Positions 47,014 through 63,356 of a stretch of DNA of 64,000 nt are shown one piece after another; position 1 is the stretch's first letter; each line of letters opens with the position of its first letter. Below the pieces are notes generated by a model, which did no database searches, had not been told where the DNA came from, and saw nothing but the letters and a program-made list of their open reading frames with translations. The translations under genes were made by a program, and so were the position numbers. This stretch comes from Pseudorhodobacter ferrugineus DSM 5888. Lineage in GTDB: Bacteria > Pseudomonadota > Alphaproteobacteria > Rhodobacterales > Rhodobacteraceae. Location of the stretch: positions 62,001 through 126,000 of the forward strand of contig NZ_ATVN01000006.1 in NCBI RefSeq assembly GCF_000420745.1, written 5' to 3'.

Positions 47014-47853
47014 ATGGCCAGCTATTTGCATCCCGAAACAATGACCGACGCCTTGGGTGCCATTGGCGCTGGCACGCGTATTTTGGCAGGTGGCACAGAC
47101 CTTTACCCAGCCACCCAAAACGCCACACTTGCGGGTGATGTGATGGATCTGATGGCCCTGCCCAACCTACGGGGTATCATGCAAACGGATCAAGGGTTGC
47201 GGATCGGCGCCTGCACGACTTGGACCGAGATTGCGCGCGCCGCGCTGCCGCCTGCCTTGACAGCCTTGCAGCAGGCCGCGCTTCAGGTTGGTGGGGTGCA
47301 GATCCAAAATGCGGGAACGATTGGTGGCAATTTGTGCAATGCGTCACCCGCCGCCGATGGGGTGCCGCCGCTACTGGCTGTGGATGCCGTTGTGGAATTG
47401 GTTAGTGCGACAGGGGTGCGCGTACTTTCGTTGCAAGACTTTCTGCTGGGCCCGCGCAAAACAGCGCGTTTGCCGGATGAAATCATGACCGCGATTGTTA
47501 TACCGAACACGGCCCTTGAAGGGCATTCGACATTTATCAAACTTGGCGCGCGGGCATATTTGGTGATTTCCATCGCAATGGTCGCGGCACGGATCACCGC
47601 ACGGGATGGAAAGATCACGGGGGCCGCGCTTGCTGTTGGGGCCTGTTCCGCAACGGCACTGCGGATAAGGAGAGTTGAGGGTGCGCTGGTCGGCCAGTCC
47701 CTTGAGAACGCTGCCGCTACTATCAATGCAGCCGATGTTGCCGCCGCCCTGTCGCCGATGGATGACCTGCGGGCCACTGCCGCCTATCGCACCCATGCCG
47801 CGGCCGAGCTGTTGCGCCGTGCGGTCACCGAAACCTGCAAGGCGCTGGCATGA
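47014..47853 (+). CDS. Xanthine-dehydrogenase-family FAD-binding subunit
   Basis: FAD subunit (CoxM/XdhB-like) of a molybdenum hydroxylase, 279 residues. FAD motifs are AGGTDLYPAT and NAGTIGGNLCNASPAADGVPP (second part: GTIGGNLCNASPA). Passes electrons from the Mo/Fe-S subunit to NAD+ or a quinone pool. The start at 47014 (MASYLHPET) is chosen because the family begins there, although its ribosome binding site is weak; the upstream frame to 46972 is an alternative. Its stop overlaps the next start (ATGA). First gene of a 16-kb plus-strand run. Confidence 0.9.
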   Translation: MASYLHPETMTDALGAIGAGTRILAGGTDLYPATQNATLAGDVMDLMALPNLRGIMQTDQGLRIGACTTWTEIARAALPPALTALQQAALQVGGVQIQNAGTIGGNLCNASPAADGVPPLLAVDAVVELVSATGVRVLSLQDFLLGPRKTARLPDEIMTAIVIPNTALEGHSTFIKLGARAYLVISIAMVAARITARDGKITGAALAVGACSATALRIRRVEGALVGQSLENAAATINAADVAAALSPMDDLRATAAYRTHAAAELLRRAVTETCKALA

Positions 47854-50537
47854 AAATTACTCTGACCCTGAACGGCCAACCCGCCAGCTTTGACGCCCCG
47901 CCCAGCCTGCGCCTGTCGGACCTGCTGCGCGAAAAGGCGGGGCTGGTAGGCACCAAAGTGGGCTGTGACGCGGGGGATTGCGGGGCGTGTACCGTGTTGG
48001 TGGATGGGGCCGCGGTTTGCGCCTGCCTAACCCCTGCCGCCCGTGCGCAGGGCCGTCGCGTTGACACGATTGAGGCGCAGACAGACACCTTGGCGCGGCT
48101 GCGCGATGCCTTTCATCGTCACGGCGCGGCGCAGTGCGGCATCTGCACCCCCGGCATGTTGATGACCGCCAGCGCGTTGCTTGCCGAAAACCCGGCCCCT
48201 ACGCCGGATCAGGCCAAAGCGGCGTTAGGTGGCGTTTTGTGCCGCTGCACAGGCTATACCAAAATCATCGCGGCAGTGTGTGATACCAATCCAGCCCCAA
48301 TCACGCTCATGCCCAGCGCGGGCAAGGCGGTGGGTGCCGCAACCCCCCGTCTTGATGGTGCCGCCAAGGTGGCTGGCGACATCTTTGGCGCGGATCTGTG
48401 GCAAAAGGGTGGGCTGATTGTGCGGGCCATCCGCTCGCCTCACCCTTCGGCGCGGTTTATCTTGGGCGACACGGCAGCTTGGGCAGGGCCGAACAGCGCA
48501 CAGGTCTTCACCGCCGCCGATATTCCCGGCATCAACCGTTTCGGCGCGATCCCCCCGTTTGCCGACCAACCCGCCCTTGCCGCATCGCATGTTCGTTTGC
48601 GCGGAGAAGCCGTTGCCCTTGTAGCGCATGAAGACGGCAGCCCAGCGCCTGATTTATCTGATTTCCCGATCACATGGCAGGTTTTGCCTCCGCTTCTGTC
48701 GCCTACCGATGCAAGCGCCGAAAACGCCCCCCAAATCCACGACACCCGCCCGAACAACACCCTTATCAAAGGCGTGGTCCGGCGCGGTGATGCGGCGGCG
48801 GCCCTTGCCAATTCCGCCCACATCGCAAGTGCCACCATCGATACCGCCTTTGTCGAACACGCCTATATTGAACCTGAGGCGGGGGCGGCTTGGATGGACG
48901 GCGATGTGCTGGTGATCCGCGCCTGCACCCAAGCCCCGGTCATGGACCGTGATGAAACTGCTGGCGTCTTGGGCCTGCCCCATGACCGGCTACGCATCAT
49001 CCCCTCGGCCGTGGGCGGCGGGTTTGGGTCAAAACTGGATGTATCTTTGCAGCCTTTAATTGGTTTGGTCACTCTCAAAACCGGGCGGCCGTGCCGCATG
49101 ACCTTTACGCGCGCTGAAAGCATGGCTTCAACCACCAAGCGCCACCCGGCACAGATGACAGGGCGGATAGGCTGTGATGCGGATGGGCGGATCACGGCGC
49201 TGCAATTTGATGGCGTGTTTGACACTGGCGCTTATGCGAGTTGGGGGCCGACTGTGGCCAACCGCGTGCCCGTCCACGCATCCGGCCCCTATTTCACGCC
49301 CAATTATTCGGCCACTGCCCATGCCGTGCACACCAACAACCCCATCGCCGGCGCCTTTCGCGGCTTTGGCGTGCCCCAAGCCGCGATCTGGCAAGAGACG
49401 ATCTATGACAAACTGGCCGATCAAGTGGGCATGGATAGGCTGGAGTTTCGCCTGCTGAACGCGATCCGAAATGGGAAAACCACCGTCACGGGGCAGGAAT
49501 TGCAGGCGGCGGGCATATCGGAGTGTTTGACCGCCCTGCGCCCCCACTGGCAACGCGCCCTTTTGGCGGCGCAACAGACGCCGGGGCGTGGGGTGGGGAT
49601 TGCGTCGTGCTGGTACGGTTGCGGCAATACGGGCCTGCCTAACCCGTCGACCATCCGGCTGGGGATCACGCCCCAAGGTGCGCTGATGCTGCACCAAGGC
49701 GCCACCGATATCGGCCAAGGGTCCAACACCGTTATCACCCAGATCGCCGCCGATGCGCTGGGCCTGCCACTGGCACAGTTCCAACTGATCGGGCCGGATA
49801 CGTTCCTTACCCCAGATGGTGGCAAAACCTCAGCCAGCCGCCAAACCTATGTCACAGGCCGCGCGGCCCATGCGGCGGGTGCTGCATTGCGCGCTAATAT
49901 CTTGCGCCGTCTGAATATGGGCGATGGGGCGACCCTATCGATGCACGACAGCACCATAACCGCGACCGAAGGCACCCAAACTGCCACACTTGCCCTCATT
50001 GCCCTGCCCCCCAACACCCAAGGCTATGCGCTGATGGCAGAGGAAACCTATGACCCGCCCACTACCGGCCTTGATACCAACGGCCAAGGCACCCCCTATG
50101 CCGTCTACGGCTTTGGTGCGCAAATGGTGGAGCTTGATGTCGACACGAAACTTGGCACCGTCAAGCTGCTCAAAATCACCGCAGCCCATGATGTGGGTCG
50201 CACCATCAACCCGCTCCTCGCCACCGGGCAAATCGAAGGCGGCATCGCTCAAGGGATTGGTTTGGCCCTGATGGAAGAATACCTGCCGGGCCGCACCGAA
50301 AACCTGCATGACTATCTTATCCCCACCACTGGTGACATGCCCGACATCGAAAGCCTGCTGATCGAAGTGCCTGACCCGCACGGCCCGTTTGGCGCAAAAG
50401 GCCTTGGCGAACATGTCCTTATTCCCACAGCCCCGGCCATCCTGAACGCTATCCGCCACGCCACCGGGGCCGAAGTCACCCGCCTCCCCGCCCTCCCTCA
50501 CCGCGTTCTGGCCGCGATGCAAAAGGCAAACCCATGA
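47850..50537 (+). CDS. Molybdenum hydroxylase, fused Fe-S and molybdopterin subunits
   Basis: An 895-residue protein that hydroxylates a carbon beside a ring nitrogen. The first 150 residues are the two-[2Fe-2S] subunit (GCDAGDCGACTVLVDG, QCGICTPGM, LCRCTGY). A short linker leads to the Mo-binding subunit with GGGFGSKLD, GAFRGFGVPQ, ATDIGQGSNT and GAKGLGEHVL, the last containing the catalytic glutamate. These two parts are separate genes in most CO/xanthine/nicotinate dehydrogenases. The reduction chain needs the FAD subunit encoded upstream. No MocA/XdhC-type maturation gene is adjacent. Substrate unknown; a pyridine, pyrimidine or purine is likely from the neighbours. Confidence 0.9.
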   Translation: MKITLTLNGQPASFDAPPSLRLSDLLREKAGLVGTKVGCDAGDCGACTVLVDGAAVCACLTPAARAQGRRVDTIEAQTDTLARLRDAFHRHGAAQCGICTPGMLMTASALLAENPAPTPDQAKAALGGVLCRCTGYTKIIAAVCDTNPAPITLMPSAGKAVGAATPRLDGAAKVAGDIFGADLWQKGGLIVRAIRSPHPSARFILGDTAAWAGPNSAQVFTAADIPGINRFGAIPPFADQPALAASHVRLRGEAVALVAHEDGSPAPDLSDFPITWQVLPPLLSPTDASAENAPQIHDTRPNNTLIKGVVRRGDAAAALANSAHIASATIDTAFVEHAYIEPEAGAAWMDGDVLVIRACTQAPVMDRDETAGVLGLPHDRLRIIPSAVGGGFGSKLDVSLQPLIGLVTLKTGRPCRMTFTRAESMASTTKRHPAQMTGRIGCDADGRITALQFDGVFDTGAYASWGPTVANRVPVHASGPYFTPNYSATAHAVHTNNPIAGAFRGFGVPQAAIWQETIYDKLADQVGMDRLEFRLLNAIRNGKTTVTGQELQAAGISECLTALRPHWQRALLAAQQTPGRGVGIASCWYGCGNTGLPNPSTIRLGITPQGALMLHQGATDIGQGSNTVITQIAADALGLPLAQFQLIGPDTFLTPDGGKTSASRQTYVTGRAAHAAGAALRANILRRLNMGDGATLSMHDSTITATEGTQTATLALIALPPNTQGYALMAEETYDPPTTGLDTNGQGTPYAVYGFGAQMVELDVDTKLGTVKLLKITAAHDVGRTINPLLATGQIEGGIAQGIGLALMEEYLPGRTENLHDYLIPTTGDMPDIESLLIEVPDPHGPFGAKGLGEHVLIPTAPAILNAIRHATGAEVTRLPALPHRVLAAMQKANP

Positions 50538-50543
50538 CTTTGC

Positions 50544-50566
50544 ATTTCATCTTTGCAAAAATACTC
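50544..50566. repeat. Intergenic repeat, copy D
   Basis: ATTTCATCTTTGCAAAAATA followed by CTC, the cleanest forward copy of the dispersed element. It begins 6 bases after the hydroxylase stop, inside the presumed operon and 48 bases before the next start. It lacks the GC-rich arm seen in copies A and C. Confidence 0.65.
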
Positions 50567-50613
50567 AATTCTGCGGCGAAACCCTGCACTGGCCATGGGA
50601 AGTTTGACCTGCC

Positions 50614-52053
50614 ATGACCCAGCCCGAAAAAATCCGCTGCGATGCTTGTCCGGTGATGTGCTACATCGCGCCCGGCCAAACAGGAGCTTGCGACCGCTAT
50701 GCCAATGACGCAGGGCGCATCATTCGTACAGATCCTGTCGTCTTTTTGTCTAAAACGCTGGCGGGCGGTGGCCGTGTGGTGCCGTTTGCGGCGCGTGATT
50801 GGGACGGTGATCCCTTTCCAGATGATGCCCAGATCACAGGCATCGGCTCTGGCACCACTTACCCTGATTACAAACCGGCACCCTTCATCATCGCGTCCGA
50901 AGTTGACGGCGCCGAGATGGTGACGGTCGTGACCGAGGCGATCTTTTCCTATTGCGGCGTAAAGGTGAAAATTGACACAGACCGCTTTCTTGGCCCCGAA
51001 GGTGCCACCGTGCGTGCGGGAGAAGAGGCGATAGGCCATGTGACCACTGCCGAATATGGGAGCCAAATGCTGTCGCTGGGTGGCGTGCACCACCTGACCG
51101 GGGGCGAGAAATCCGAAGGCCGCGTGACTTGTGCCGCCCTTTTGGCGCTGTGCAACGGTGAAGCGGTAGAGCTGGTGATCGACCAAGGCAGCGCAGTTAC
51201 CGTCCAAGCCGGCCGCGCCCCAATCGTTGATGGCCGGGTTGAAAACCGGATGCGGGTGGGTTGCGGGTCGGCGACGATTGGGATGTTTGCCGATCAATGG
51301 CAAGGGTTGGTGGATGAGGTGGTCGTGGTCGATGACCATATCACTGGCGTCGTGTCAGAACACCAAGCGGGTAAGGTGCTGGGCTGGGCAGATACTGGCA
51401 TCAAGATCCTTGGCCGTCGTTCCACCCCCGGTCGCTATTTCCGGGTGTCCGAGCCGGGGTTGGGCTGGGGCGGCACGCAGGTCAGTGATCCACTGGAAAT
51501 TCTTGGTCCATGGAACGCCAAAAAGGGCGCACGGGCTGGGCTGCGGTTGTTGATGGTATCCACCACGGGCGAGGAGTTTGCGTATTACGAGCTGGATGAA
51601 GCGCTGACGCCGCAATCAAAACCCATCCCTGACGCGCTGATGCCATCGGTCAAATTGATTGATGAAAACTGCGAGCCGTCGCTGTGTAGCGTTCTGTTTA
51701 TGGGCGGTGCGGGCGGGTCTTTGCGGGCAGGCGTCACGCAAAACCCAGTGCGTTTGACGCGATCTGTGCAGGCCCGGCAAACCCGACTGACTTCGGGAGG
51801 GGCAGAGTGTTATGTTTGGCCGGGTGGCGGGATTACCTTTATGGTCGATGTTTTGCGCCTTCCTGCAGGTGCCTTTGGCTATGTACCCACCCCTGCGCTG
51901 GTGGCCCCGCTGGAATTTACCTTGTCGCGTGCTGAATATTTGGCGTTGGGCGGGCATGCGGGCGCGATCAAGTCGCTGGCCGAGATGATGCGGGATGGTG
52001 GGGAATACCCGACGGAGGCAAAGCTGGTTCCACACACAGGCGGCTTGGGGTGA
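50614..52053 (+). CDS. 6-hydroxynicotinate reductase-like iron-sulfur protein
   Basis: A 479-residue protein that I recognise as the family named after 6-hydroxynicotinate reductase of Eubacterium barkeri, which reduces the pyridine ring with ferredoxin. An N-terminal cluster motif is formed by Cys9, Cys12, Cys16 and Cys26 (RCDACPVMCYIAPGQTGACD). The rest has GVHHLTGGEKSEGRV, YCGVKVKIDTDR and a C-terminal GGGITFMVDV block. No signal peptide. In an aerobe it would need a low-potential donor or act in another way. Next to a Mo-hydroxylase and a hydantoinase A/B pair, partial ring reduction is a logical step. Exact reaction unproven. Confidence 0.72.
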   Translation: MTQPEKIRCDACPVMCYIAPGQTGACDRYANDAGRIIRTDPVVFLSKTLAGGGRVVPFAARDWDGDPFPDDAQITGIGSGTTYPDYKPAPFIIASEVDGAEMVTVVTEAIFSYCGVKVKIDTDRFLGPEGATVRAGEEAIGHVTTAEYGSQMLSLGGVHHLTGGEKSEGRVTCAALLALCNGEAVELVIDQGSAVTVQAGRAPIVDGRVENRMRVGCGSATIGMFADQWQGLVDEVVVVDDHITGVVSEHQAGKVLGWADTGIKILGRRSTPGRYFRVSEPGLGWGGTQVSDPLEILGPWNAKKGARAGLRLLMVSTTGEEFAYYELDEALTPQSKPIPDALMPSVKLIDENCEPSLCSVLFMGGAGGSLRAGVTQNPVRLTRSVQARQTRLTSGGAECYVWPGGGITFMVDVLRLPAGAFGYVPTPALVAPLEFTLSRAEYLALGGHAGAIKSLAEMMRDGGEYPTEAKLVPHTGGLG

Positions 52054-52067
52054 AGGGCTTGATTTTT

Positions 52068-52129: not shown

Positions 52130-52963
52130 ATGAACGGACCGCAGATCACGCGGCTTTCTGGGGATCGGTTGCATCTGCATCATGGGCCGATTGACCTGAT
52201 CCTTTGGGCCGAGGGGCGCAGGCGGGCGCAAGCTTATCATCAAGCAATTGCCCGGTTTGACGGTTTGCTAGAGGAATTGGTCGCCGAGTTGCCTGTGTTG
52301 CGCAGTCCGGATCCGGCACCGCTGCGAGGGGTAATCGCACAGTCGATGGCGGTGGCTGTGACGCCCTTTCGCCCAGCGTTTATTACACCCATGGCCGCCG
52401 TGGCAGGGGCTGTTGCCGATGCGGTTTTGGCGGCGATGTGCCAAGGCACGAACCTGACCCGCGCCTATGCCAACAATGGCGGCGATATTGCTGTGCATCT
52501 GGCAACGGGGCAAAGCCTGACTGCCGCGATGTTAGGGGCGGGCAGTTCGCAGTTGACGTTGAAATATGACCACCCCGCACGCGGAATTGCGACATCGGGG
52601 TGGGGCGGCCGCAGCTTGTCGCGCGGGATTGCCGACAGCGTGACTGTTGTAGCGCGGACCGCTGCAATGGCGGATGCCGCCGCGACGATGATCGCCAATG
52701 CGGTGCATTTGGGCGAACATCCAGCCATTACCCGCCGTCCTGCGCGCGACGTGAAGGCTGATAGTGACCTTGGCAATATTCTTGTCACCACTGCGGTTGG
52801 CACGCTGACACGCACCGAGATTACCCGCGCGCTGAACAATGGCTATGCGGCGGCACAAACCTATGCCGACAAGGGCCTTATTGCGGGGGCCGCGCTTTTC
52901 CTGCACTCTCAATCTTGCACCCTTGGCACTCTCAGCCTTGTAAAGGACCCCGAATATGTCTGA
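52130..52963 (+). CDS. UPF0280 family protein (ApbE-superfamily fold)
   Basis: A 277-residue protein of the UPF0280 family, distantly related to ApbE flavin transferases. Visible features are TPMAAVAGAVADAVL, NNGGDIAVHL and GIATSGWGGRSLSRGIADSVTVVA (part: ATSGWGGRSLSRGIADS). NNGGD resembles the NxGGD block of ApbE, so binding of FAD or metal is conceivable. The ATG follows GGGCAGG. It overlaps the next gene by 8 bases, so the two are coupled. Function unknown; repeated company with the reductase-like gene suggests a shared pathway role such as cofactor attachment. Confidence 0.78.
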   Translation: MNGPQITRLSGDRLHLHHGPIDLILWAEGRRRAQAYHQAIARFDGLLEELVAELPVLRSPDPAPLRGVIAQSMAVAVTPFRPAFITPMAAVAGAVADAVLAAMCQGTNLTRAYANNGGDIAVHLATGQSLTAAMLGAGSSQLTLKYDHPARGIATSGWGGRSLSRGIADSVTVVARTAAMADAAATMIANAVHLGEHPAITRRPARDVKADSDLGNILVTTAVGTLTRTEITRALNNGYAAAQTYADKGLIAGAALFLHSQSCTLGTLSLVKDPEYV

Positions 52964-53537
52964 CTTTGCCTTGCGCAAAACCTTGCTGTTTATCGAAGAC
53001 ATCCTGCATGAAGGCGGACCCGCGCCGGCAAGCACGCACCAACGCGGGGCAATCGTGGCGGTGGTCAAGAACCCATTCGCCGGCCGGTTTGAGGGCGAGT
53101 TGCAACCCGCGATGGATGTGCTGAAACCCTTGGGCCTGATGCTGACGGATCAGTTGATTGCCGCGATGGGCGGGCGGGACGGGATTGATGGCTATGGCAA
53201 AGGTGCAATTGTCGGGGCGGCAGGTGAGATTGAGCATGGCGCGCTGTGGCATGTGCCTGGCGGCTATGCGATGCGCGAACGATTGGGGACCAGCAAAGCG
53301 ATTGTGCCAAGTGCAATGAAGGTTGGGACGCTGGCCACCACGTTGGATGTGCCCTTGGGCCATATCAACGCGGCCTATGTCCGCAGCCATTTTGACGCCT
53401 TTACCGTGTCAGTCCCCGATGCCCCGCGCGCCGACGAAATTGCGTTTATTCTTGCGATGGCACGCGGCGGACGGGTCCATTCGCGTATGGGCGGGTTAGA
53501 AGCATGGGACGTAAAGGGCGAGGATGGTTTGCGCTGA
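52956..53537 (+). CDS. 'Amino acid synthesis' family protein (DUF1185)
   Basis: A 193-residue protein of the poorly characterised 'amino acid synthesis' family. Recognisable parts are RGAIVAVVKNPFAGRF, YGKGAIVGAAGEIEHGALWH and MKVGTLATTLDVPLGH. No signal or membrane segment. It starts inside the UPF0280 gene and its TGA overlaps the start of the membrane protein gene (TGATG), so all three are translationally coupled. Possible role in processing a ring-opened or cyclic amide; no biochemical evidence is known to me. Confidence 0.75.
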   Translation: MSDFALRKTLLFIEDILHEGGPAPASTHQRGAIVAVVKNPFAGRFEGELQPAMDVLKPLGLMLTDQLIAAMGGRDGIDGYGKGAIVGAAGEIEHGALWHVPGGYAMRERLGTSKAIVPSAMKVGTLATTLDVPLGHINAAYVRSHFDAFTVSVPDAPRADEIAFILAMARGGRVHSRMGGLEAWDVKGEDGLR

Positions 53538-54922
53538 TGCGCGGCGCCATCCTCATCGCTTTACTGCCAAGCGCGGCATTCGCCTGCGCCTTGCCGCCTT
53601 CGATCATCATGACGCTGCCAACCGGATATTATATGCTGGGGGCGGCGGTCACGGTAGCCGTGACCGGCCTACTGGCAACCACCCCGCGGCTTGTGCCCGA
53701 CATGACGCTACGCACGCTGCTGACGCGCAGGGTTTGGCTGCCTGTATCCGTGACCAGCTATGCCGCGTGGATCGTGCTTTTGGCGCTTGTGCTGATCGGG
53801 TTTGTCGGCGCGCGTGACCCGATGCACAACCTGCTGACGTTGATTATCTGGACGATTGTTTGGGTCGCCCTACCGATGGGATGTATGGTTTTTGGCAACA
53901 TGTGGCGCGCGGTGAACCCGTGGACCGCCCCCATTCAGCTGACCCGTCAAATCCTTGGCCGCACGAGGGGCGCGGGCATTGCACGGCTGGGCCATTTGCC
54001 TGCCGTTGCGGGCCTGTTCGGATTTTTCTGGTTTTACATTGTATCGATGTCGCCCGACGATCCGCAAACCCTTGCCCTTGCTACGGCAAGCTATTGGACC
54101 GTGATTTTCGTGCTGGGCGTGGTTGAAGGCGAGGACTGGCTGGAACAAGGCGAGTTTTTGACCGTGTATTTCGGGTATTTGTCCAAAATAGCGCCGTTCT
54201 GGTTAGAGGTAGAAGGCCCCCGCGCCACATTGCATATGGGCTGGCCAGGGACACAGGTGCTTGCCATGCCACCGCTGTCACCTTCGGCGATCGGTTTTGT
54301 CACGCTGGCATTGGCGGGCCTGACATTTGATGGTTTGCGAGAAACGTTTTGGTACATGGCGGTAATTGGCGAAAACCCTTTGGAATTTACCGGACGGTCG
54401 GCAGTTATCGGGGTGAACAGTTTTGGTTTATTGCTTACTTGGGCGCTGACAGCGGCAACCATTTTGGCGGCATTGCGCCTTGGACCTATGCTGCAAACGC
54501 AGGCGGTTGGTGCCTTTGCAGGGGGCGCTGGGACCACGGCAGTGCGGGCAAACCTGATGCCGGTGATGCTGTCATTTTTGGCAATTTCAGCGGGCTATCA
54601 TGCCGCACACTACCTGACGACCTTGTTGACGGCGGGTCAATATACGCTGGCTGCGCTGAATGACCCCTTGTTTCGCGGCGATGATTTTCTGGGGCTGCCT
54701 GCGTTTTATGTGTCTATGGGGTTTTTGACCGACCGCTGGACGATGACGCTGATCTGGAACACGCAATTTTTGCTGATCCTTGGCGCGCATGTTTTGGCTG
54801 TGATCCTGGCGCTGCGGTTAACGCCCGAGGGGGTACAGGCGCGCGTGCATTTCCCCCTGACCGCCTTGATGGTGGGGTATACCGTGCTGGGGCTATGGTT
54901 GCTTGCCTCGCCCACGGGGTAG
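53537..54922 (+). CDS. Polytopic membrane protein of unknown function
   Basis: A 461-residue protein with a signal-like start (MRGAILIALLPSAAFACA) and about eleven hydrophobic segments. Distinct parts are FGNMWRAVNPWTAPIQLTR, GGWGGT-free loops, VVEGEDWLEQGEFLTVY, GYHAAHYLTTLL and FYVSMGFLTDRW. I do not recognise it with certainty; the GNMWRAVNPW segment faintly resembles proteins labelled fenitrothion hydrolase in actinobacteria, a name of little functional value. The start at 53537 is preferred over 53504 because it overlaps the previous stop and begins the signal. Could be an importer, an exporter or a membrane redox protein; paired histidines in GYHAAHY may bind metal or haem. Confidence 0.7.
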   Translation: MRGAILIALLPSAAFACALPPSIIMTLPTGYYMLGAAVTVAVTGLLATTPRLVPDMTLRTLLTRRVWLPVSVTSYAAWIVLLALVLIGFVGARDPMHNLLTLIIWTIVWVALPMGCMVFGNMWRAVNPWTAPIQLTRQILGRTRGAGIARLGHLPAVAGLFGFFWFYIVSMSPDDPQTLALATASYWTVIFVLGVVEGEDWLEQGEFLTVYFGYLSKIAPFWLEVEGPRATLHMGWPGTQVLAMPPLSPSAIGFVTLALAGLTFDGLRETFWYMAVIGENPLEFTGRSAVIGVNSFGLLLTWALTAATILAALRLGPMLQTQAVGAFAGGAGTTAVRANLMPVMLSFLAISAGYHAAHYLTTLLTAGQYTLAALNDPLFRGDDFLGLPAFYVSMGFLTDRWTMTLIWNTQFLLILGAHVLAVILALRLTPEGVQARVHFPLTALMVGYTVLGLWLLASPTG

Positions 54923-55021: not shown

Positions 55022-56302
55022 ATGACGAAGCTGATCGGAATGACCCCCTCACGCCGCACTTTGCTTAAGGGTATGGCGGCAACTGCATCTGCGTTGGCCC
55101 TGCCAGGGTTCGTGCAAGCGCAAAGTTCTGCGCCCATCAAACTGGGCTTTCAGCTGCACCGCACAGGGATTGGTGCAGCCTATGGCCGTTGGTACGAGCG
55201 CACAACCCAAGCGGCGCTGAAGGTGCTGAATGACCAAGGTGGCATCAATGGCAGGCCGGTTGAAGTAATTTTCGAGGATGATGGCACCGACCCTAAGCGC
55301 GGGGCGGAAGTGGTGGAAAAGCTGGCATCGCAAGCGGGTTGCGATGCAATCTTCGGGCCGCTGTTCAGCCATGTGGTTAACGGATCGGCACCACGCGCGG
55401 GCGAATTGCAGGTGCCCTATTTGGTCTGTTCCGAAGGGTTCCACGTGGCATCGGGCAAGTTGAACCGCTGGACCATGCAGCCAGGCATTACGGATGTGCG
55501 GGCACAGGTGTCATCAATGGCGCCTTGGGTGGCCGCGAACCTTGGCAAAAAGGTTACGATGGTGTTTCCCGACTATGCCTTTGGCCATGATCACCGTGAC
55601 TATTTTACGGCGGCGATTGAAGCACAAGGTGGGGAGGTGATCAAGCACATCGCGATTCCACCAACCGAAACCAGTTTTACACGCTATTTGCCGCAGATCC
55701 CCAAGGAAACTGAAGTGCTGTATCACGTCATGGTGGGCCCTGCCGTTCTGACCTTTGTAAAGGAATTGGGCGAGTTTTATGGTACGGGAACACGACCCGA
55801 AATCTTTGGCTTTATCGACAGCCTAGAAGCGGTGGATACCGCCTCACCCGGGCTTGAGTTTCTGGAAGGCACGCATTTCTGGGAAGGCCATTGCCGCGTG
55901 AAACAGGCCGATGCGAGCGAGCATGAAGCGTTTTACCGCATGGCAGTGGGCGTGGATGACACTGGCGCATCGGTGTCGGATTCCAAAGACGTGGCGACCT
56001 ATGCACATATGTTTTCCACTTGGGAAACGCTGTTTGTGCTGAAAAAGGGGATGGAGGCGGCCGGCTATCAAACCACCGCCGACAGGCAAAAGCTGATCGA
56101 GGCGATTGAGGCTATGACCAATATGCCTGAAAGCATGGAGCATCCGCAAGGCGCCAAGGTGTTTAATGGCAAGACGCATCAAGTGTTCGGGCATCAGAGC
56201 ATCTCAAAAGTAGAGGGCGGCAAGTTGGTGCGGGTTCATATGACCAGTATCGAGGACGGCATGTATGAGGACGCTGTCGATTACACTACAATGTCGTTTT
56301 GA
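55022..56302 (+). CDS. Branched-chain-type ABC importer substrate-binding protein
   Basis: Periplasmic binding protein of 426 residues of the LivJ/amide-binding (type I fold) family. The N-terminus MTPSRRTLLKGMAATASALA is a twin-arginine signal, seven residues after the ATG at 55022. Parts of the fold are KLGFQLHRTGIGAAYGRWYE, VIFEDDGTDPKRGAEVVEKL, GPLFSHVVNGSAPRAGE and FGHDHRDYF. The extended members of this family take amides, urea, aromatic acids and small heterocycles, so the pathway substrate is the likely ligand. GACAGAGGACACTG precedes the start. Confidence 0.88.
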   Translation: MTKLIGMTPSRRTLLKGMAATASALALPGFVQAQSSAPIKLGFQLHRTGIGAAYGRWYERTTQAALKVLNDQGGINGRPVEVIFEDDGTDPKRGAEVVEKLASQAGCDAIFGPLFSHVVNGSAPRAGELQVPYLVCSEGFHVASGKLNRWTMQPGITDVRAQVSSMAPWVAANLGKKVTMVFPDYAFGHDHRDYFTAAIEAQGGEVIKHIAIPPTETSFTRYLPQIPKETEVLYHVMVGPAVLTFVKELGEFYGTGTRPEIFGFIDSLEAVDTASPGLEFLEGTHFWEGHCRVKQADASEHEAFYRMAVGVDDTGASVSDSKDVATYAHMFSTWETLFVLKKGMEAAGYQTTADRQKLIEAIEAMTNMPESMEHPQGAKVFNGKTHQVFGHQSISKVEGGKLVRVHMTSIEDGMYEDAVDYTTMSF

Positions 56303-56380: not shown

Positions 56381-56394
56381 ACAGGGATTGCTGA

Positions 56395-57273
56395 ATGGAT
56401 TTCGGGCCGTTTTTGCTGTTGGCCTTGATGGAAGGCATGGTCATGGCCGCCGTTCTGGCATTGACCGCTGTGGGGCTGTCGCTTGTGTTTGGCGTGATGC
56501 GCGTGGTTAACGTGGCACATGGCGAGTTTTTTATGCTGGGTGCCGTAATTGCATGGTTTGTGACGCATTTTATGCCCGGTCCACCCGCTGTGGCATTCGC
56601 CGCGGCCTTGGTAATTTGCCCGTTGCTGGTGGGGGGCATCGCGGCGCTGTCGGATACACTGATCCTGAAGCGGCTGAACTATGACCCCGAGGCGACGATC
56701 GTGGCGACGATTGGGTTGAGTTATATCTTTCAGCAAACAGCGCTAACATTTTATGGGCCTGATGCACGGCCGGTTTTGGCACCCTTTGATTTGCGCATTC
56801 AGCTGCCGTGGTTTGGGTATTCAGGTTACAAGATCGCTGTGGTCTTTGCGGCCCTTGCGATTTTGCTGGCGGTGTGGCTGTTGATGACCCGCACGCGCGC
56901 GGGGCTGATCATGCGCGCTACGCAGCTTGACCGCAACACGGCACGCGCCTTTGGCATCAATGTAGACCGGGTTTATGCCGCCGTTTTTGCGTTGGGGGCG
57001 GGGTTGGCGGCGGTGGCGGCGGTGTTGATCGTGCCTATTCAGCAGGCCCATTACCTGATGGGGCACGACCCGCTGCTGCTGTCGTTTATTGTGGTTATCA
57101 TCGGGGGCCTTGGGTCCTTGCGCGGCACATTGGTTGCCGCCTTGGTGATCGGGTTGTCAGACGGTGTGATCTCGGTGTTCTTTTCCCCGACACTGGCGAA
57201 AATCCTAGCCACCTTGCTGGTCGCCATGGTGTTGGTGTTTCGCCCCCAAGGCCTGTTTGGAACCAAGCCATGA
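56395..57273 (+). CDS. Branched-chain-type ABC importer permease (LivH-like)
   Basis: Inner-membrane permease of 292 residues with about eight hydrophobic segments. Family motifs are GLSLVFGVMRVVNVAHGEF (cut: VFGVMRVVNVAHGEF) and GALGSLRG-like IIGGLGSLRGTLVAALVIG. Starts 92 bases after the binding-protein stop, with the repeat copy F in between. Its TGA overlaps the next ATG (ATGA). With the second permease it forms the pore; the substrate is the same unknown compound. Confidence 0.9.
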   Translation: MDFGPFLLLALMEGMVMAAVLALTAVGLSLVFGVMRVVNVAHGEFFMLGAVIAWFVTHFMPGPPAVAFAAALVICPLLVGGIAALSDTLILKRLNYDPEATIVATIGLSYIFQQTALTFYGPDARPVLAPFDLRIQLPWFGYSGYKIAVVFAALAILLAVWLLMTRTRAGLIMRATQLDRNTARAFGINVDRVYAAVFALGAGLAAVAAVLIVPIQQAHYLMGHDPLLLSFIVVIIGGLGSLRGTLVAALVIGLSDGVISVFFSPTLAKILATLLVAMVLVFRPQGLFGTKP

Positions 57274-58205
57274 CCCGCGCACTTGCCCTTCATCTTGCGG
57301 TCCTTGCCGCGCTGTTTGCCGCGCAATTCCTGCTGCCATCTTATCATCACACCAACATCGCCCGCATCATGGTGCTGGCTGTGTTTGCGATGGGGTACAA
57401 CATTGCCTTTGGCTATACTGGCCTTTTGTCCCTTGGCCACGCGCTTTTCTTTGCCGCAGGGATGTATGCCACAGGTTTGGGAATAGAGCTTTGGGGCCTG
57501 TCCGCCGCACCGGCCTTGGTGTTGGGGCTGCTGGCGGGGGCGGCGATCGCCGCAGCCACGGGGGTTTTGGCCCTGCGCACCGGTGGTGTCAGCTTTATGA
57601 TTGTGACACTGATGTTTGCTCAGGCGGGGTATCTGACCATCCTTTATTTCGGGGCCTATACGCGGGGCGATGAGGGTATCGTGATTACCCGCGCCGCCCG
57701 CAGCATCGGTAGCCTTGATCTGTCGTCTGATACCCCGCGCTATTTCGCGGCGTTGGCGCTGTTTTCGGTCGGCCTGCTGTTGAACCTTGCACTGACGCGG
57801 TCCAACCTTGGTCGCGCAATGATCGCGATGCGCGAGAATGAAGAACGGTCCCGTATGCTGGGCTATAACCCGTTCAAAATAAAGCTGACAGCGTTGCTGA
57901 TTTCCGGCCTTTATGCGGGGGCAGCGGGGGCGGCCTATGCCGTTCTATTTGGCTATGTCGGGGCCAGTTTTGCGACGATCCAATATTCGATCCTGCCATT
58001 GCTATACGTCTTGCTGGGTGGGGCAGGCACAACCCTTGGGCCGTTTCTTGGGGCGTTGTTGATGTTTTATCTGATTGATATTTCATCCGGCTATACCACC
58101 GCACATCTGTTCGTGGTGGGAGCGGCGCTGCTGATTCTGGTGCTGTTTGCGCCCAAGGGCATCTTGGGTTGGGTGCGGGACAGGGGAGCAAAATGGCTGC
58201 CATGA
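57270..58205 (+). CDS. Branched-chain-type ABC importer permease (LivM-like)
   Basis: Second permease, 311 residues, about nine hydrophobic segments. Family motifs are NIAFGYTGLLSLGHALFFAAG (cut: GYTGLLSLGHALFFA), AMIAMRENEERSRMLGYNPF and LLGGAGTTLGPFLGA. Start overlaps the previous stop. Its end overlaps the ATPase gene by 13 bases. RENEERSRMLGYN is the usual EAA-like coupling loop. Confidence 0.9.
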   Translation: MTRALALHLAVLAALFAAQFLLPSYHHTNIARIMVLAVFAMGYNIAFGYTGLLSLGHALFFAAGMYATGLGIELWGLSAAPALVLGLLAGAAIAAATGVLALRTGGVSFMIVTLMFAQAGYLTILYFGAYTRGDEGIVITRAARSIGSLDLSSDTPRYFAALALFSVGLLLNLALTRSNLGRAMIAMRENEERSRMLGYNPFKIKLTALLISGLYAGAAGAAYAVLFGYVGASFATIQYSILPLLYVLLGGAGTTLGPFLGALLMFYLIDISSGYTTAHLFVVGAALLILVLFAPKGILGWVRDRGAKWLP

Positions 58206-58915
58206 TCCTGTCTGCCCCCCTTTTGTCAGCGCGCGGTTTGACCAAGCATTACGATGGTATCAAAGCGGTCGAGACTGTGGATTTTGACCTGACCGCAGGT
58301 CAAGTTCATGCGCTTATTGGCCCAAATGGTGCGGGCAAAACCACTTTTGTCAGCTTGCTTTCGGGCCGCATCACGCCCAGCGCGGGCACCATCCAATTCG
58401 ATGGGGCCGATATCACCCGCTTGCCCGCCCATAGCCGCGTGGCGCGCGGTATCGCCTATACGTTCCAGATCACCTCTATCTACGCCAATCTGCCAGTATT
58501 TGATAACGTAGCCTTGGCAATTCAGCGCCAAGGCAGCACCAATTTGCGCGCGAAAACGATGGCCGCATTGGCCCGCGTGGGTTTGGACGGTCGTGCAGAT
58601 CAAAACGCGGGTACGCTGGCTTATGGACACCAGCGCCTGCTTGAAATCGCAATGGGGCTGTCGATGGCGCCCAAGCTGCTGATATTGGATGAACCGACCC
58701 AAGGTCTTGCGAATGCGGAAATTGACGCCTTTAACACCTTGATCCGCGAAGTGACGCCGCAGACCACCGTGTTGTTGATCGAACATAATATGGATGTGGT
58801 GATGGATCTTGCCGACCAGATCACCGTTTTGAGTTTTGGTGAAACGCTCGCCACTGGCACCCCTGCCGAAATTCGCAGCAATCCGGCGGTGCAAGCCGCC
58901 TATTTGGGGGGCTAA
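58193..58915 (+). CDS. Branched-chain-type ABC importer ATPase (LivG-like)
   Basis: ATPase of 241 residues. Walker A is GPNGAGKTTF, the signature is LAYGHQRLLEIAMGL (LivG proteins use a YG form in place of LSGGQ), Walker B is LLILDEPTQGL and the switch is IEHNMDVVM. I chose the ATG at 58193 since GGGGAG lies 5 bases upstream; the ATG at 58202 overlaps the permease stop but has poor spacing. The second ATPase gene follows after 3 bases. Confidence 0.9.
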   Translation: MAAMILSAPLLSARGLTKHYDGIKAVETVDFDLTAGQVHALIGPNGAGKTTFVSLLSGRITPSAGTIQFDGADITRLPAHSRVARGIAYTFQITSIYANLPVFDNVALAIQRQGSTNLRAKTMAALARVGLDGRADQNAGTLAYGHQRLLEIAMGLSMAPKLLILDEPTQGLANAEIDAFNTLIREVTPQTTVLLIEHNMDVVMDLADQITVLSFGETLATGTPAEIRSNPAVQAAYLGG

Positions 58916-58918
58916 CGG

Positions 58919-59614
58919 ATGCTGGAGCTTTCAAACATCAACGCGGGTTACGGCAATGTTCAGGTGTTACGCGGGTTGTCGTTAACGGCAGGGCCGGGGC
59001 AGGTCACATGCGTTATGGGCCGCAACGGTGCTGGCAAAACCACCATGCTGCGGGCCATCATGGGGCAGATTTCCACGACAGCGGGCAGCATCACCCTGAG
59101 TGGTACGCCGCTGCAAACCCTACCCGCACATGAAGTGCCACGCGCGGGCATCGGCTATGTCCCCCAAGGCCGCAGACTGTTTGGTGAGCTGACGGTGGCA
59201 CAAAATATCGAGATTGGGTTGATGACACGAGGCAAAGGGCGCGCCACACGCGATTATGTGCTGTCGCTGTTTCCCCGCCTGCGCGAACGGCTGTCGCAGC
59301 GCTCAAGTACCCTGTCGGGTGGCGAGCAACAAATGCTCGCCATAGCCCGCGCGCTGTGTCTCGAACCGAGCGTTTTGTTACTGGATGAGCCGACGGAAGG
59401 GTTGCAACCCTCTATGATCACGTTGATCCGCGACACATTGTTGACGTTGAAATCCACGGGGGTGGCAATAGTGCTGGTAGAACAGCGGGTCGATGCCGTG
59501 CTGGCGATGGCCGATCATATCGCCTTTGTCACGGCGGGCAGTGTTGCAGAAACTGTGCCTAACACGGGTCTAAGCACCGATTCTGCACAATTCAAAACCT
59601 ATGTAGGGGTATAG
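58919..59614 (+). CDS. Branched-chain-type ABC importer ATPase (LivF-like)
   Basis: ATPase of 231 residues. Walker A is GRNGAGKTTMLRAIMG, the signature LSGGEQQMLAIARAL, Walker B VLLLDEPTEGL, switch EQRVDAVL (Gln in place of the usual His). GYVPQGRRLFGELTV is typical of LivF. It completes the five-gene importer with the binding protein and two permeases; the hydantoinase A gene follows after 3 bases. Confidence 0.9.
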   Translation: MLELSNINAGYGNVQVLRGLSLTAGPGQVTCVMGRNGAGKTTMLRAIMGQISTTAGSITLSGTPLQTLPAHEVPRAGIGYVPQGRRLFGELTVAQNIEIGLMTRGKGRATRDYVLSLFPRLRERLSQRSSTLSGGEQQMLAIARALCLEPSVLLLDEPTEGLQPSMITLIRDTLLTLKSTGVAIVLVEQRVDAVLAMADHIAFVTAGSVAETVPNTGLSTDSAQFKTYVGV

Positions 59615-59617
59615 GAA

Positions 59618-61654
59618 ATGGCCGCAACCCTGATCGCTGGCGCAGATGTTGGTGGCACCTTTACTGATCTTGTTATCCTGAACCCCGCAACGGGTGAGGT
59701 GCGACTCGCCAAAACCCCGACGACACTGGACCCGAATGCAGGCGGCCAAGCGGCGGGCGTCCTGTCCGCCCTCGATAAGTCGCAAACGCCCCTGTCTGAC
59801 CTTGCCCTTATCGTGCATGGCACAACGACAACGACCAACGCTGTGCTGGAACGCAAGCTAGCCAAAACTGGCCTTATAACCACGCGTGGTTTCCGGGATA
59901 TTCTGGAACTTGGTCGCCGTACACGCCCCAACGCTTACGGTATGACGGGCCAATTTATGCCGATCATTCCCCGTGATCTTCGGTTAGAAGTATCCGAGCG
60001 TATGGATGCCAAAGGCCGCGTTTTGACCGCCTTGGATGAAGATGAGTTTTGCCAAAACGTCACTAAACTGGCGGAAATGGGCTGCGAATCCCTCGTCATC
60101 CACTTTCTGCACGCCTATGCAAACCCCGCACACGAACTACGCGCCGCAGAACTCGCAACCCAGATTTGGCCCACGCGCTACATCACTTGCGGCCACGCCC
60201 TTTTGTCTGAATCCCGAGAGTTTGAGCGCGGCGTGACCGCTGCCGTCAATGCTTCGGTCCAGCCGCTGCTGGAACGTTATATCCAATCACTTGCCACAGC
60301 CCTTGAAACCAAAGGCTATCAAAACGACCTTTTGGTCATGAACGGCAACGGTGGCATGGTTCCGGCATCACAAGTCAGCGCCGAGGCGGTAAAAACCGTG
60401 ATGTCCGGTCCCGCATCCGGTGTTATGGCAGCCGTCGCTACCGGCCGCCGTGCTGGCATTTCCAACCTGATTACATATGACATGGGTGGGACATCAACCG
60501 ATGTAGCACTCATCAAAAATGCTCGCGCCCCAGTTTCAAACGAGATTGAGGTCGAATATGCGATGCCAATCCATGTGCCGATGGTCGATGTGCGCACGGT
60601 TGGCGCGGGTGGCGGGTCCATCGCGCGTGTTGATGCAGGCGGCATGTTGCGAGTTGGACCCCATTCGGCGGGTTCTGTCCCTGGTCCGATTTGCTATGGC
60701 AACGGCGGCACCGAACCCACCATTTCCGATGCAAACCTTTTGCTCGGGCGCCTTCCCGCCACACGCTTTGGCGCCGATGAATCCGAACTTTCTGCAATAT
60801 TCGAGACCAAAATTGGTAAACCCCTCGGTCTTTCACCCCATGCGGCAGCGGAGGCTGTGATCCGCATTGCCAACACTCATATGGCGGGTGCGATCCGCAT
60901 GGTTTCATTGTCCCTCGGCGCCGATCCACGCGATTATGCGCTGTTTGCCTTCGGGGGCGCAGGCCCGCTGCACGCCACGGCTTTGGCTGCCGAACTGGGT
61001 ATTCCACGGGTGTTAGTGCCTGCCAGACCAGGCATGACCAACGCTTTGGGCTGTGTTGTCGCCGATCTGAGACATGATTCTGTTCGCACCCTGAACCGCC
61101 CACTCGACAGCGTGGACATAGCCGATGTTCACAACATTCTGGCCAATCAGATTGCGACTGGCACCAACCGTATCAAGGCGGCAGGCATCAATCTGACGCA
61201 AATCCAAACCGAACTTTCCGCCGATATGCAGTTTATCGGTCAAACCCACCTGCTGCGCGTGCCCTTGCCCAACGCCACGCCAACGCGCAAAGATTTGCAG
61301 CACAGGTTTGAAGCCGCCTATCACGCCCGTTTTCGTGTGAACCTACCGACGATTCGCGCCAATCTGGTAAACCTCAATACCTCTGTTATCGGTCAGCGCC
61401 CCGAAATGGACCTCTCTCGTCTAATTGACCCAGCAGGCCGCCACGTGACAGCGAAACCACACTCCACACGCAAGGTTTGGTTCAACGGGTGGCATGACAC
61501 GCCGATTTATTGGCGCGACCATCTGCCCTTGGACCTGCATCTTATTGGCCCTGCTCTGATCGAACAGATGGACACAACAACCCTTGTGCATCCGGGTTGC
61601 ACCGTCACATCCGATTCCGATGGAAACCTGATCATCACGGTGCCGCATGTCTAA
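59618..61654 (+). CDS. Hydantoinase/oxoprolinase family, subunit A
   Basis: ATP-dependent cyclic amide hydrolase subunit of 678 residues (HyuA type). The actin-like ATP-binding fold shows GADVGGTFTDLVIL (phosphate 1), VHGTTTTTNAVLE and TYDMGGTSTDVALI (phosphate 2) and FAFGGAGPLHA. With subunit B it opens a five- or six-membered lactam, hydantoin or oxoproline at the cost of ATP. It starts 3 bases after the importer ATPase stop and overlaps subunit B by 8 bases. Cytoplasmic. Likely the ring-opening step for the product of the Mo-hydroxylase and reductase-like gene. Confidence 0.9.
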   Translation: MAATLIAGADVGGTFTDLVILNPATGEVRLAKTPTTLDPNAGGQAAGVLSALDKSQTPLSDLALIVHGTTTTTNAVLERKLAKTGLITTRGFRDILELGRRTRPNAYGMTGQFMPIIPRDLRLEVSERMDAKGRVLTALDEDEFCQNVTKLAEMGCESLVIHFLHAYANPAHELRAAELATQIWPTRYITCGHALLSESREFERGVTAAVNASVQPLLERYIQSLATALETKGYQNDLLVMNGNGGMVPASQVSAEAVKTVMSGPASGVMAAVATGRRAGISNLITYDMGGTSTDVALIKNARAPVSNEIEVEYAMPIHVPMVDVRTVGAGGGSIARVDAGGMLRVGPHSAGSVPGPICYGNGGTEPTISDANLLLGRLPATRFGADESELSAIFETKIGKPLGLSPHAAAEAVIRIANTHMAGAIRMVSLSLGADPRDYALFAFGGAGPLHATALAAELGIPRVLVPARPGMTNALGCVVADLRHDSVRTLNRPLDSVDIADVHNILANQIATGTNRIKAAGINLTQIQTELSADMQFIGQTHLLRVPLPNATPTRKDLQHRFEAAYHARFRVNLPTIRANLVNLNTSVIGQRPEMDLSRLIDPAGRHVTAKPHSTRKVWFNGWHDTPIYWRDHLPLDLHLIGPALIEQMDTTTLVHPGCTVTSDSDGNLIITVPHV

Positions 61655-63356
61655 AACAGTCTCTAATATAGCTAAAATTGACCCGATTACCCTTGCCGTG
61701 ATCCAAGCAGGCCTGCAACAATGCTGCGATGAGATGGACCTGACCTTCAGCCGCGCTGCATTTTCACCCGTAATTGCCGAAGCAGATGATCGCTCCGATG
61801 GTATCTATTCTGCAACCGATGGCGCGCTGATCGCCCAAGGCGCCCGGGGCCTACCAGTATTCGTCGGCACCATGCAGTTTTCCACCCGCCATATCATTGA
61901 ACGCATCGCCAACGGCGAAACCTTGCCTCCTGAAGAGGGTGACATTTATATCGTCAACGACCCCTACCTTGGCGGCACGCACCTCATGGATGTACGATTT
62001 GCGATGCCGTTTTATCGCGATGGTGAGATCTATTGCTGGCTGTCGAACACTGGCCATTGGCCTGATACAGGCGGGGCGGTGCCAGGCGGGTTTTCCGCAT
62101 CGGCCACAGCTGCGGAACAAGAAGGTCTACGCCTGCCTCCCGTTAAACTTTTCAAAAGGGGCGTGTTAGACACTGAAATTTGGGCAATCATACGCTCTAA
62201 CATCCGCGTATCCGAACAGCGGATCGGTGATGTGCAGGCGCAAGCCTCGGCCCTGTTGGTCGGCGCAGATCGGCTCACCGAGCTCCTCAACCGTTACGGC
62301 GATGATACTGTCACCGCTGCCATCGCGGAAATCCGTACGCTCGCCGCTGCCCAGATGCGGGCCAAAATCGCAATGATCCCGCAAGGCAGCTACCAATCGC
62401 GCGCTTTTATTGACAGTGACGGCGTGGTCAATGAACCCCTGACCATCGCGCTGACTGTGACCCGCCATGACGACAAGCTAACCTTTGATTTCACGGGCTC
62501 GTCTTTGCCCTGCGCCGGCCCCATGAACTCTGTCCGCGCCACCACATTTTCCTCTGTCTACCTTGCCCTGCGCCACATTTTCCCCGATGTGCCCTTGTCG
62601 GCAGGCGCGTTTGAGCCGCTTGAGATCATGGGGCATGTGGGCACGTTCTTGGATGCCCATTACCCTCGCCCTGTGTCGGGGTGTGCCGCCGAAGTATCGC
62701 AGCGCATCGCCGAGGCGGTTTTTGCCGCCCTTGTCCAAGCTGTGCCCAATCTTGTAACCGCGGCCCCCGCAGGCACTTCAGGGAATTTCGGCCTTGGCGG
62801 GTACGACCCCGAAAAGGGCCGCGATTTCGTGATGTATCAAATTTCGGGCGGCGGCTACGGTGGCAATGCCAATCATGATGGCCTGTCAAACGGCTGTTCG
62901 ACCATTGGCATATCCAAGGCCCCTCCGGTCGAGATTATGGAACAAACCTATCCCGTCCTTTACCGTCGCTACGCTCTGCATGAAGGGTCAGGCGGCGCGG
63001 GCCAGCATCGCGGCGGCTTTGGGCTGGACTATGAATTAGAGCTGCTGCGCGGCACCGCGCGGGCGAGCTTTGTCATGGATCATGGCCGCACTGGCCCCCA
63101 AGGGGCACTCGGCGGTGCAGATGGCGCTGTGAACCGTGTTGAAATTACCCGAGACGGTGAGGTTTTCATCCCGCCGCACCTATCCAAAGCCCAGGATATC
63201 ACCTTGCACCCTGGCGACAGCGTGCGTGTCCGCACGCCCGGTGGGGGCGGCTATGGTGACCCGCACCTGCGCGACCCATCTCTGGTGGCCGAAGACGTCC
63301 GGCTTGGCCGCTATTCCAAGGCGCAAGCAGATCAGCTTTTCGGCCGGAAAACCTAG
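61647..63356 (+). CDS. Hydantoinase/oxoprolinase family, subunit B
   Basis: Subunit B (HyuB type), 569 residues. Motifs include RAAFSPVIAEADDRSDGIY, DIYIVNDPYLGGTHLMDV, GHWPDTGGAVPGGFSASATA, GSGGAGQHRGGFGLDYEL and the C-terminal RVRTPGGGGYGDP. DPYLGGTH is a conserved metal-site segment. Acts as a complex with subunit A. It is the last gene of the run; a diverged repeat copy and a convergent sugar-transferase gene follow. Confidence 0.9.
   Translation: MSKTVSNIAKIDPITLAVIQAGLQQCCDEMDLTFSRAAFSPVIAEADDRSDGIYSATDGALIAQGARGLPVFVGTMQFSTRHIIERIANGETLPPEEGDIYIVNDPYLGGTHLMDVRFAMPFYRDGEIYCWLSNTGHWPDTGGAVPGGFSASATAAEQEGLRLPPVKLFKRGVLDTEIWAIIRSNIRVSEQRIGDVQAQASALLVGADRLTELLNRYGDDTVTAAIAEIRTLAAAQMRAKIAMIPQGSYQSRAFIDSDGVVNEPLTIALTVTRHDDKLTFDFTGSSLPCAGPMNSVRATTFSSVYLALRHIFPDVPLSAGAFEPLEIMGHVGTFLDAHYPRPVSGCAAEVSQRIAEAVFAALVQAVPNLVTAAPAGTSGNFGLGGYDPEKGRDFVMYQISGGGYGGNANHDGLSNGCSTIGISKAPPVEIMEQTYPVLYRRYALHEGSGGAGQHRGGFGLDYELELLRGTARASFVMDHGRTGPQGALGGADGAVNRVEITRDGEVFIPPHLSKAQDITLHPGDSVRVRTPGGGGYGDPHLRDPSLVAEDVRLGRYSKAQADQLFGRKT

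Follow-up and report, generated by a model that had tools for sequence, protein, structure and literature searches.

A conserved gene cluster of Pseudorhodobacter ferrugineus that may degrade a pyridine carboxylate, with a hydantoinase-like HyuAB pair in the place of enamidase

What a run of thirteen genes on a single strand takes up and breaks down is the question raised by a stretch of 64,000 nucleotides from Pseudorhodobacter ferrugineus DSM 5888 (family Rhodobacteraceae; contig NZ_ATVN01000006.1, positions 62,001 to 126,000), here called the window. The thirteen reading frames, all on the plus strand, span positions 47014-63356 of the window and encode a molybdenum hydroxylase (Mo-hydroxylase), a 6-hydroxynicotinate-reductase-like protein (HNR), proteins of the UPF0280 and PF06684 families, a membrane protein, an importer, and the hydantoinase-like proteins HyuA and HyuB (HyuAB). 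An initial annotation, made from the letters alone, had listed these genes and assigned them to one new pathway for an unknown nitrogen heterocycle; every frame of that list is present, and Pfam and NCBIfam searches bear out the families named. We lean towards the reading that these genes form an operon for the catabolism of a pyridine carboxylate, nicotinate being the likeliest, in which the reduced lactam would be opened by an ATP-dependent HyuAB that replaces the enamidase.

The evidence that carries this reading is the complementary occurrence of HyuAB and enamidase. One hundred genomes of the family, one per genus and the window's own included, were searched whole, with identity limits of 60% for HyuB and 75% for enamidase that were set after gaps in the identities had been seen (61% vs 44% and 76% vs 42%, respectively). 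HNR was present in 41 of the 100 genomes, HyuB orthologs (at least 60% identical; paralogs reach 44%) in 18, and enamidase orthologs (at least 76%) in 24, with a 42% relative in one further genome. Each of the 41 HNR genomes had one of the two openers and none had both: HyuB alone was found in 17, enamidase alone in 24, both in 0 and neither in 0 (Fisher test, 6.6e-12). Among the 59 genomes lacking HNR, a single one (85% complete) has part of HyuB, and the number with an enamidase ortholog is 0. These counts include partial copies (HNR of G016, enamidase of G598, HyuB of G592 and G599) and copies with one stop in the match (HyuB of G592, G603, G648 and G654; enamidase of G627 and G645). The amidohydrolase found at such loci is an enamidase relative, a Sulfitobacter member matching the solved enamidase 2vun at E 4.9e-105; the window's genome, rated 99.98% complete, gave no enamidase match at E ≤ 1e-40. 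In one genome counted as HyuAB (G022, locus L165), stop codons interrupt both HNR and HyuB, and the search for enamidase found none; there the pathway seems to decay as a whole.

In 6 of the 17 HyuB genomes and 9 of the 24 enamidase genomes, HNR and its opener are on separate contigs or more than 20 kb apart, so that exclusivity seems to hold beyond gene order, with the proviso that in fragmented assemblies a different contig need not mean a large distance. Hydantoinase genes in unrelated contexts would have spoken against the initial annotation, and by this measure it is not refuted: 17 of the 18 HyuB genomes carry HNR, on a different contig from HyuB in 6 of the 17.

Related loci were also compared by their gene neighbourhoods. 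A named set, seen in a 10-kb view, comprised 80 loci, the best-ranking of at least 575; a wider set added seven plasmid loci and 58 further stretches, and its counts cover 127 loci with a length of 14 kb or more, after removal of shorter loci and of L163, which comes from the same genome as L014. The 127 loci are partly non-independent (three pairs share identical HNR genes, and the 65 from the named set are near kin of the window), and the neighbour lists still hold some antisense frames. Of the 127, 65 have HyuA or HyuB in view and 18 have enamidase; 0 have both, and 44 show neither (Fisher test of HyuAB vs enamidase, 5.7e-7); in a broad set of 62 loci the corresponding numbers were 23, 18, 0 and 21 (3.6e-5); both locus-level values overstate independence, and the 100-genome test is the cleaner one. 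A quickly built tree of 126 HNR rows, of which 82 carry an opener label, shows at least seven exchanges between the openers, and five exchange pairs sit on well-supported branches. Within the window's own genus, G008 (L156) is of the enamidase type; the other five with HNR are 87-92% identical to the window's. Taking into consideration that (i) the two openers occur in complementary fashion and (ii) they have been exchanged repeatedly, HyuAB and enamidase would do the same job, or mutually exclusive jobs.

The synteny of the run is conserved as well. All thirteen genes, in the same order and on one strand, are found in 25 of the 80 named loci and the first five in 62 of them; in the others, contig ends or the 10-kb limit truncate the view, or the importer stands upstream and not downstream. 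Of the 127 loci, 123 have a Mo-hydroxylase, of one type or the other, and 18 a ferredoxin-NADP reductase. The initial annotation's view of uptake, hydroxylation, reduction and ring opening as a single unit is supported both by this kept gene order and by the presence of HNR in nearly all HyuB genomes.

HyuA, the ATP-using subunit of the proposed lactamase (59618-61654), carries PF01968 and PF05378, and HyuB, its metal subunit (61647-63356), carries PF02538 (519 bits). HyuA scored 475 bits against the caprolactamase alpha model, and a second caprolactamase score was 306 bits; the cut-off is 1000 for each, and neither was reached. Among solved structures HyuA matched N-methylhydantoinase (E 1.1e-119) and 5-oxoprolinase (E 2.7e-111). 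The ATP motifs DxGGTxTD, D(M/V)GGT and GxxPGP are present at residues 10, 288 and 352 of HyuA, and His112, Asp115 and His137 of HyuB are spaced like His99, Asp102 and His124 of CapB; the first Asp of the metal tetrad (Asp-His-Asp-His), placed without alignment, is perhaps residue 47, 48 or 51. The motif patterns are kept in 57 of 57 HyuA and 28 of 28 HyuB copies long enough to score, the first ATP pattern also fitting the second ATP site and thus not being an independent test in related HyuA copies. The window pair is like CapAB, OplAB and N-methylhydantoinase in its two-subunit make-up, its ATP motifs and most of its metal site; unlike CapAB, it stays far under the caprolactamase cut-offs and is tied to HNR in 17 of 18 family genomes. 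HyuAB-type enzymes consume ATP, whereas enamidase does not. For caprolactamase, PMC8453981 gives a use of about one ATP per turn and a need for bicarbonate, the metal site being the presumed place where the activated lactam is hydrolysed; the related enzyme OplAB opens the six-membered delta-valerolactam (PMC11033972). Since the reduction product expected here, 1,4,5,6-tetrahydro-6-oxonicotinate (THON), is likewise a six-membered lactam, ATP-driven opening of the reduced ring by HyuAB would, by analogy, be chemically reasonable.

The genes for the preceding steps open the run. The FAD (flavin adenine dinucleotide) subunit of the Mo-hydroxylase (47014-47853; PF00941 139 bits, PF03450 61 bits) has xanthine dehydrogenase FAD subunits as its best NCBIfam equivalogs, at 173 bits and short of the cut-off of 310; the fused [2Fe-2S] and molybdopterin subunit of 895 residues (47850-50537; Fer2, Fer2_2, MoCoBD_1 and MoCoBD_2) reached no NCBIfam cut-off either, its best xanthine dehydrogenase equivalog scoring 564 bits vs 830. 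HNR (50614-52053, 479 residues) gave no match at E 0.001 in either Pfam or NCBIfam, and its predicted structure (mean predicted local distance difference test, pLDDT, 70) gave no fold match among solved structures at E ≤ 0.001. Its name comes from annotated plasmid relatives: 17 of 26 records of HNR relatives on plasmids are annotated as 6-hydroxynicotinate reductase, and the seven plasmid-locus relatives that were opened, all seven so annotated, are 60-79% identical to the window protein. Cysteines 9, 12, 16, 26, 114, 173, 217 and 353 are invariant in a 30-row alignment. The closest relatives of the window HNR belong to Pseudorhodobacter, P. wandonensis being the nearest named one with 91% identity in HNR, and the family is also found in marine SAR116 and Roseobacter-group bacteria. 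In one SAR116 single-cell genome (L076), HNR stands with a distant hydroxylase and importer set, 23-37% identical to the window's, which is another possible variant. Residues 114-150 of HNR weakly resemble the C-terminal barrel of the glycine-cleavage T-protein (PF08669, E 0.005, below cut-off), and by fold Foldseek places T-proteins at ranks 10 and 14 with E of about 1, the level of chance; a T-protein-like part in HNR is a weak hint, to be taken as a lead only.

How much of this is already known? A reductive nicotinate cluster has been described for Azorhizobium caulinodans, Bradyrhizobium and strain SG-6C (PMC3511419), and the HNR of Eubacterium barkeri is given there as 42% identical to the SG-6C protein. 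The window resembles this cluster in having HNR, a Mo-hydroxylase beside it (in the window directly upstream), an importer, UPF0280 and PF06684; it differs in having HyuAB and not enamidase as the third-step enzyme, in its FAD subunit plus fused Fe-S/Mo subunit where five genomes that fit the described layout have a hydroxylase of the NicA/NicB kind, and in an importer of another type with its own membrane protein and no MarR gene seen alongside. Five large genomes (L149-L153) show a NicA/NicB-type hydroxylase, HNR, UPF0280, PF06684, an importer and MarR, which fits the layout in PMC3511419, and two of them also show an amidohydrolase and a ferredoxin-NADP reductase within view; we infer that these loci are of the described kind and that UPF0280 and PF06684 are its two unknown proteins. 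The nicotinate pathway of Eubacterium barkeri (Hnr, enamidase Ena) is proposed to run in the same sequence, from hydroxylation through reduction to ring opening; it differs in that the organism is an anaerobe and uses enamidase. The heterocycle called unknown in the initial annotation, and its "one new pathway", must accordingly be revised, as the core matches the cluster in PMC3511419. The core is already known, and what is new here is HyuAB where the described nicotinate cluster has enamidase. In the literature searched, no two of 6-hydroxynicotinate reductase, UPF0280 and the "amino acid synthesis" family were mentioned together, and enamidase was not mentioned with hydantoinase or oxoprolinase among the matches listed; PMC6346535, a fungal nicotine transcriptome, mentions oxoprolinase together with the word stem hydroxynicotin-.

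The two families that travel with HNR are UPF0280 (52130-52963; NF003322 342 bits, cut-off 290) and PF06684, named "amino acid synthesis" (52956-53537; 225 bits, cut-off 27). A neighbourhood search for HNR with UPF0280, as suggested by the initial annotation, found the pair kept in all 127 loci; the PF06684 gene is present in 111. The UPF0280 protein of the window weakly matches the solved structure 2o34 (E 0.0019). Its PF06684 protein is nearest to BB2672 (3byq, E 3.3e-52; SPO0826, 2qtp, E 2.1e-39), while a second PF06684 paralog, taken from a Sulfitobacter locus, is closest to 2qtp (E 5e-106 vs 8.7e-31 for 3byq), so the two solved structures represent the two paralogs. These stand in tandem at some loci (e.g., L102:16353-17512 and L104:16326-17488). 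All 18 enamidase loci carry the second paralog, as do 5 of the 65 HyuAB loci, a difference for which an independent-pairs test had too few pairs. PMC2954203 derived the role of PF06684 from its fold and from amino-acid transport genes in the vicinity; the loci surveyed here suggest that transporters near PF06684 can belong to pyridine-acid clusters and that the name "amino acid synthesis" may mislead.

Uptake would fall to the block between PF06684 and HyuA. It consists of a membrane protein (53504-54922), a periplasmic substrate-binding protein (55022-56302; PF13458 174 bits), permeases of the UrtB/LivH type (56395-57273; PF02653 126 bits; UrtB 195 bits, cut-off 250) and the UrtC/LivM type (57270-58205; UrtC 119 bits, cut-off 296), and ATPases of the UrtD/LivG type (58193-58915; ABC_tran 107 bits; UrtD 205 bits, cut-off 304) and the UrtE/LivF type (58919-59614; UrtE 242 bits, cut-off 286). 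The four permease and ATPase genes match models of urea (Urt) and branched-chain (Liv) ATP-binding cassette transporters, Urt best, and no cut-off is reached; the binding protein perhaps has a twin-arginine leader (TAT_signal 19.5 bits, below the cut-off of 22.7). The membrane protein has no NCBIfam match and none in Pfam up to E 10. Its predicted structure is helical, with a mean pLDDT of 85, and no solved relative came up at E ≤ 0.001. Its gene is present in 52 of the 127 loci, and a Liv-type permease accompanies it in 49 of these 52 and, in the broad set, in 8 of 8; from this co-occurrence it is probably a transport component.

Every reaction in the scheme proposed here, and its substrate, we infer from these genes. 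The Urt/Liv-type importer, with its own membrane protein, would take up the pyridine acid, and the Mo-hydroxylase would oxygenate the carbon adjoining the ring nitrogen to give 6-hydroxynicotinate. The HNR-like enzyme, probably fed by reduced ferredoxin, would then form the lactam THON. HyuA would activate the lactam carbonyl with ATP and the metal site of HyuB would hydrolyse it, in replacement of enamidase; the ring-opened enamine would break down to 2-formylglutarate and ammonia. The UPF0280 and PF06684 proteins may assist, in a way that we leave unspecified.

Nicotinate is probably the front runner among the substrates, as suggested by the HNR family, by the exchange with enamidase and by a nicotinamidase-like gene that stands at the cluster in 21 of the 127 loci (HyuAB is in view in 7 of these, enamidase in 2 and no opener in 12); nicotinamidase-like here means at least 52% identical to the L085 protein, the one that was scored and passes (218.6 bits, cut-off 174). 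A Rieske oxygenase stands at the cluster in 9 of the 127 loci (e.g., L102:17535-18605; 2 with HyuAB, 5 with enamidase, 2 with neither in view) and is perhaps an N-demethylase for trigonelline-like compounds.

Several points weigh against nicotinate opened by HyuAB. Neither opener is in view at 44 of the 127 loci, and the whole-genome search covered the one family; the nicotinamidase-like gene is found in a minority of loci and not at the window's own; the HNR label comes from annotated relatives and not from a direct comparison with the E. barkeri enzyme; and HyuAB might serve another ring isomer. In addition, the second PF06684 paralog and certain hydroxylase columns track the opener, which may reflect a different substrate or descent. 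Among the columns that separate HyuAB from enamidase loci none does so perfectly (best balanced score per protein 0.87 to 0.96), and as they also follow descent, no conclusion on the substrate was drawn from them.

These points lead to the alternative that we regard as possible, if tentative, namely that reductive pyridine degradation has a second branch, marked by HyuAB, with a pyridine carboxylate of its own other than nicotinate (picolinate, isonicotinate or an N-methyl form) and with an ATP-dependent lactamase that would open the reduced hydroxypyridine ring; such a branch would cover 17 of the 41 sampled HNR-bearing genera of the family. In its wider form, the main rival to nicotinate, to which we give slightly less credence and which we would call doubtful, the same chemistry would act on another pyridine acid, such as picolinate, N-methylpicolinate (homarine) or isonicotinate. 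The lactam formed would lack the conjugated carboxyl that eases hydrolysis of THON and would therefore need an ATP-driven opener; the use of ATP by HyuAB and not by enamidase, known for the families, suits a lactam of such greater stability, and the differences in PF06684 paralog content and in some hydroxylase columns between the opener sets are in line with it. So is the presence of HNR in marine SAR116 and Roseobacter-group bacteria, homarine degraders having reportedly been found among such bacteria. However, the nicotinamidase-like gene occurs at both HyuAB and enamidase loci, the Rieske oxygenase likewise stands beside both openers, and at least seven exchanges on the HNR tree are more easily explained by a step whose enzyme can be swapped than by a substrate that changed each time.

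Homarine itself was considered as the substrate and dropped, as neither the carbon count of its reported product nor gmaS supports it. That product is reportedly N-methylglutamate, which has a five-carbon skeleton; hydroxylation, reduction and hydrolysis keep all six carbons, so it does not fit the chemistry proposed for the window. No type III glutamine synthetase (gmaS) over cut-off was found in the window's genome, and gmaS and HNR are shared by 14 of the 100 genomes vs 12.7 expected (p 0.66), that is, they are not associated. Three sarcosine-oxidase-like gene sets occur in the window's genome, on contigs 12, 18 and 22 (L168, L167 and L166); the one on contig 22 shares 54% (alpha) and 67% (beta) identity with a gmaS-linked set. 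Its relatives at 60% identity or more are present in 56 of the 100 family genomes (two partial), including 29 of the 41 with HNR (p 0.015), and show no tie to HyuB (p 0.43); an N-methylglutamate dehydrogenase lead that built on this set, weakly tied to HNR, was not decisive and was dropped. The homarine catabolism operon (Ferrer-Gonzalez et al. 2026, cited in PMC13390433) is likewise reported to degrade a pyridine carboxylate.

It is improbable, in our estimation, that HyuAB acts on a later amide or lactam and that ring opening falls to the PF06684 protein or the UPF0280 protein, or needs no enzyme. Both of these families lack an assigned reaction and accompany HNR in 111 and 127 of the 127 loci, respectively, as this reading would have it; yet UPF0280 occurs with either opener, which leaves the presence of exactly one opener in each of the 41 genomes without an account, and HyuA and HyuB retain the caprolactamase motifs. 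That the run degrades a non-pyridine compound (a purine, hydantoin, pyroglutamate, urea derivatives or caprolactam) is very improbable: by score the closest models are indeed xanthine dehydrogenase, caprolactamase and the urea transporter, but none of their cut-offs is reached, and the HNR family and its exchange of openers with enamidase point to hydroxypyridine chemistry.

The layout of the run is compact. Six of its twelve gene junctions overlap, namely FAD/Mo subunit (4 bases), UPF0280/PF06684 (8), PF06684/membrane protein (34), LivH/LivM (4), HyuA/HyuB (8) and also LivM/LivG; the other six are gaps of 3 to 99 bases. The FAD-subunit gene starts at ATG 47014 and LivG at ATG 58193, LivG having been taken in the cross-locus comparisons from an in-frame start at 58178, 15 bases upstream. 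The initial annotation had noted that the run encodes no regulator, and none was seen in it or in the genes next to it, though a MarR-like gene is present in 93 of the 127 related loci. Directly upstream, on the minus strand (43592-46836), lie a permease and a binding protein closest to 2-aminoethylphosphonate transporter models, below cut-off; downstream, on the opposite strand, follows a sugar-transferase-like gene, also below cut-off. At 18 of the 80 named loci (among them L018, L022, L026, L029, L040, L042, L050 and L052) an oxidoreductase of the old-yellow-enzyme family is encoded upstream of the FAD gene on the opposite strand, in some with a TetR gene along; mycofactocin-type old-yellow-enzyme models match it below cut-off.

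We return to our preferred reading, a pyridine carboxylate operon with HyuAB as the probable ring opener, and to what it would mean. The presence of exactly one of two unrelated openers in each of the 41 HNR genomes would give a hydantoinase-like clade that is so far named by family a sharp, testable function. The HyuAB route would spend ATP, which the described enamidase route does not. Finally, UPF0280 and PF06684, two old families of unknown function, would be tied to pyridine breakdown and become testable within a defined pathway.

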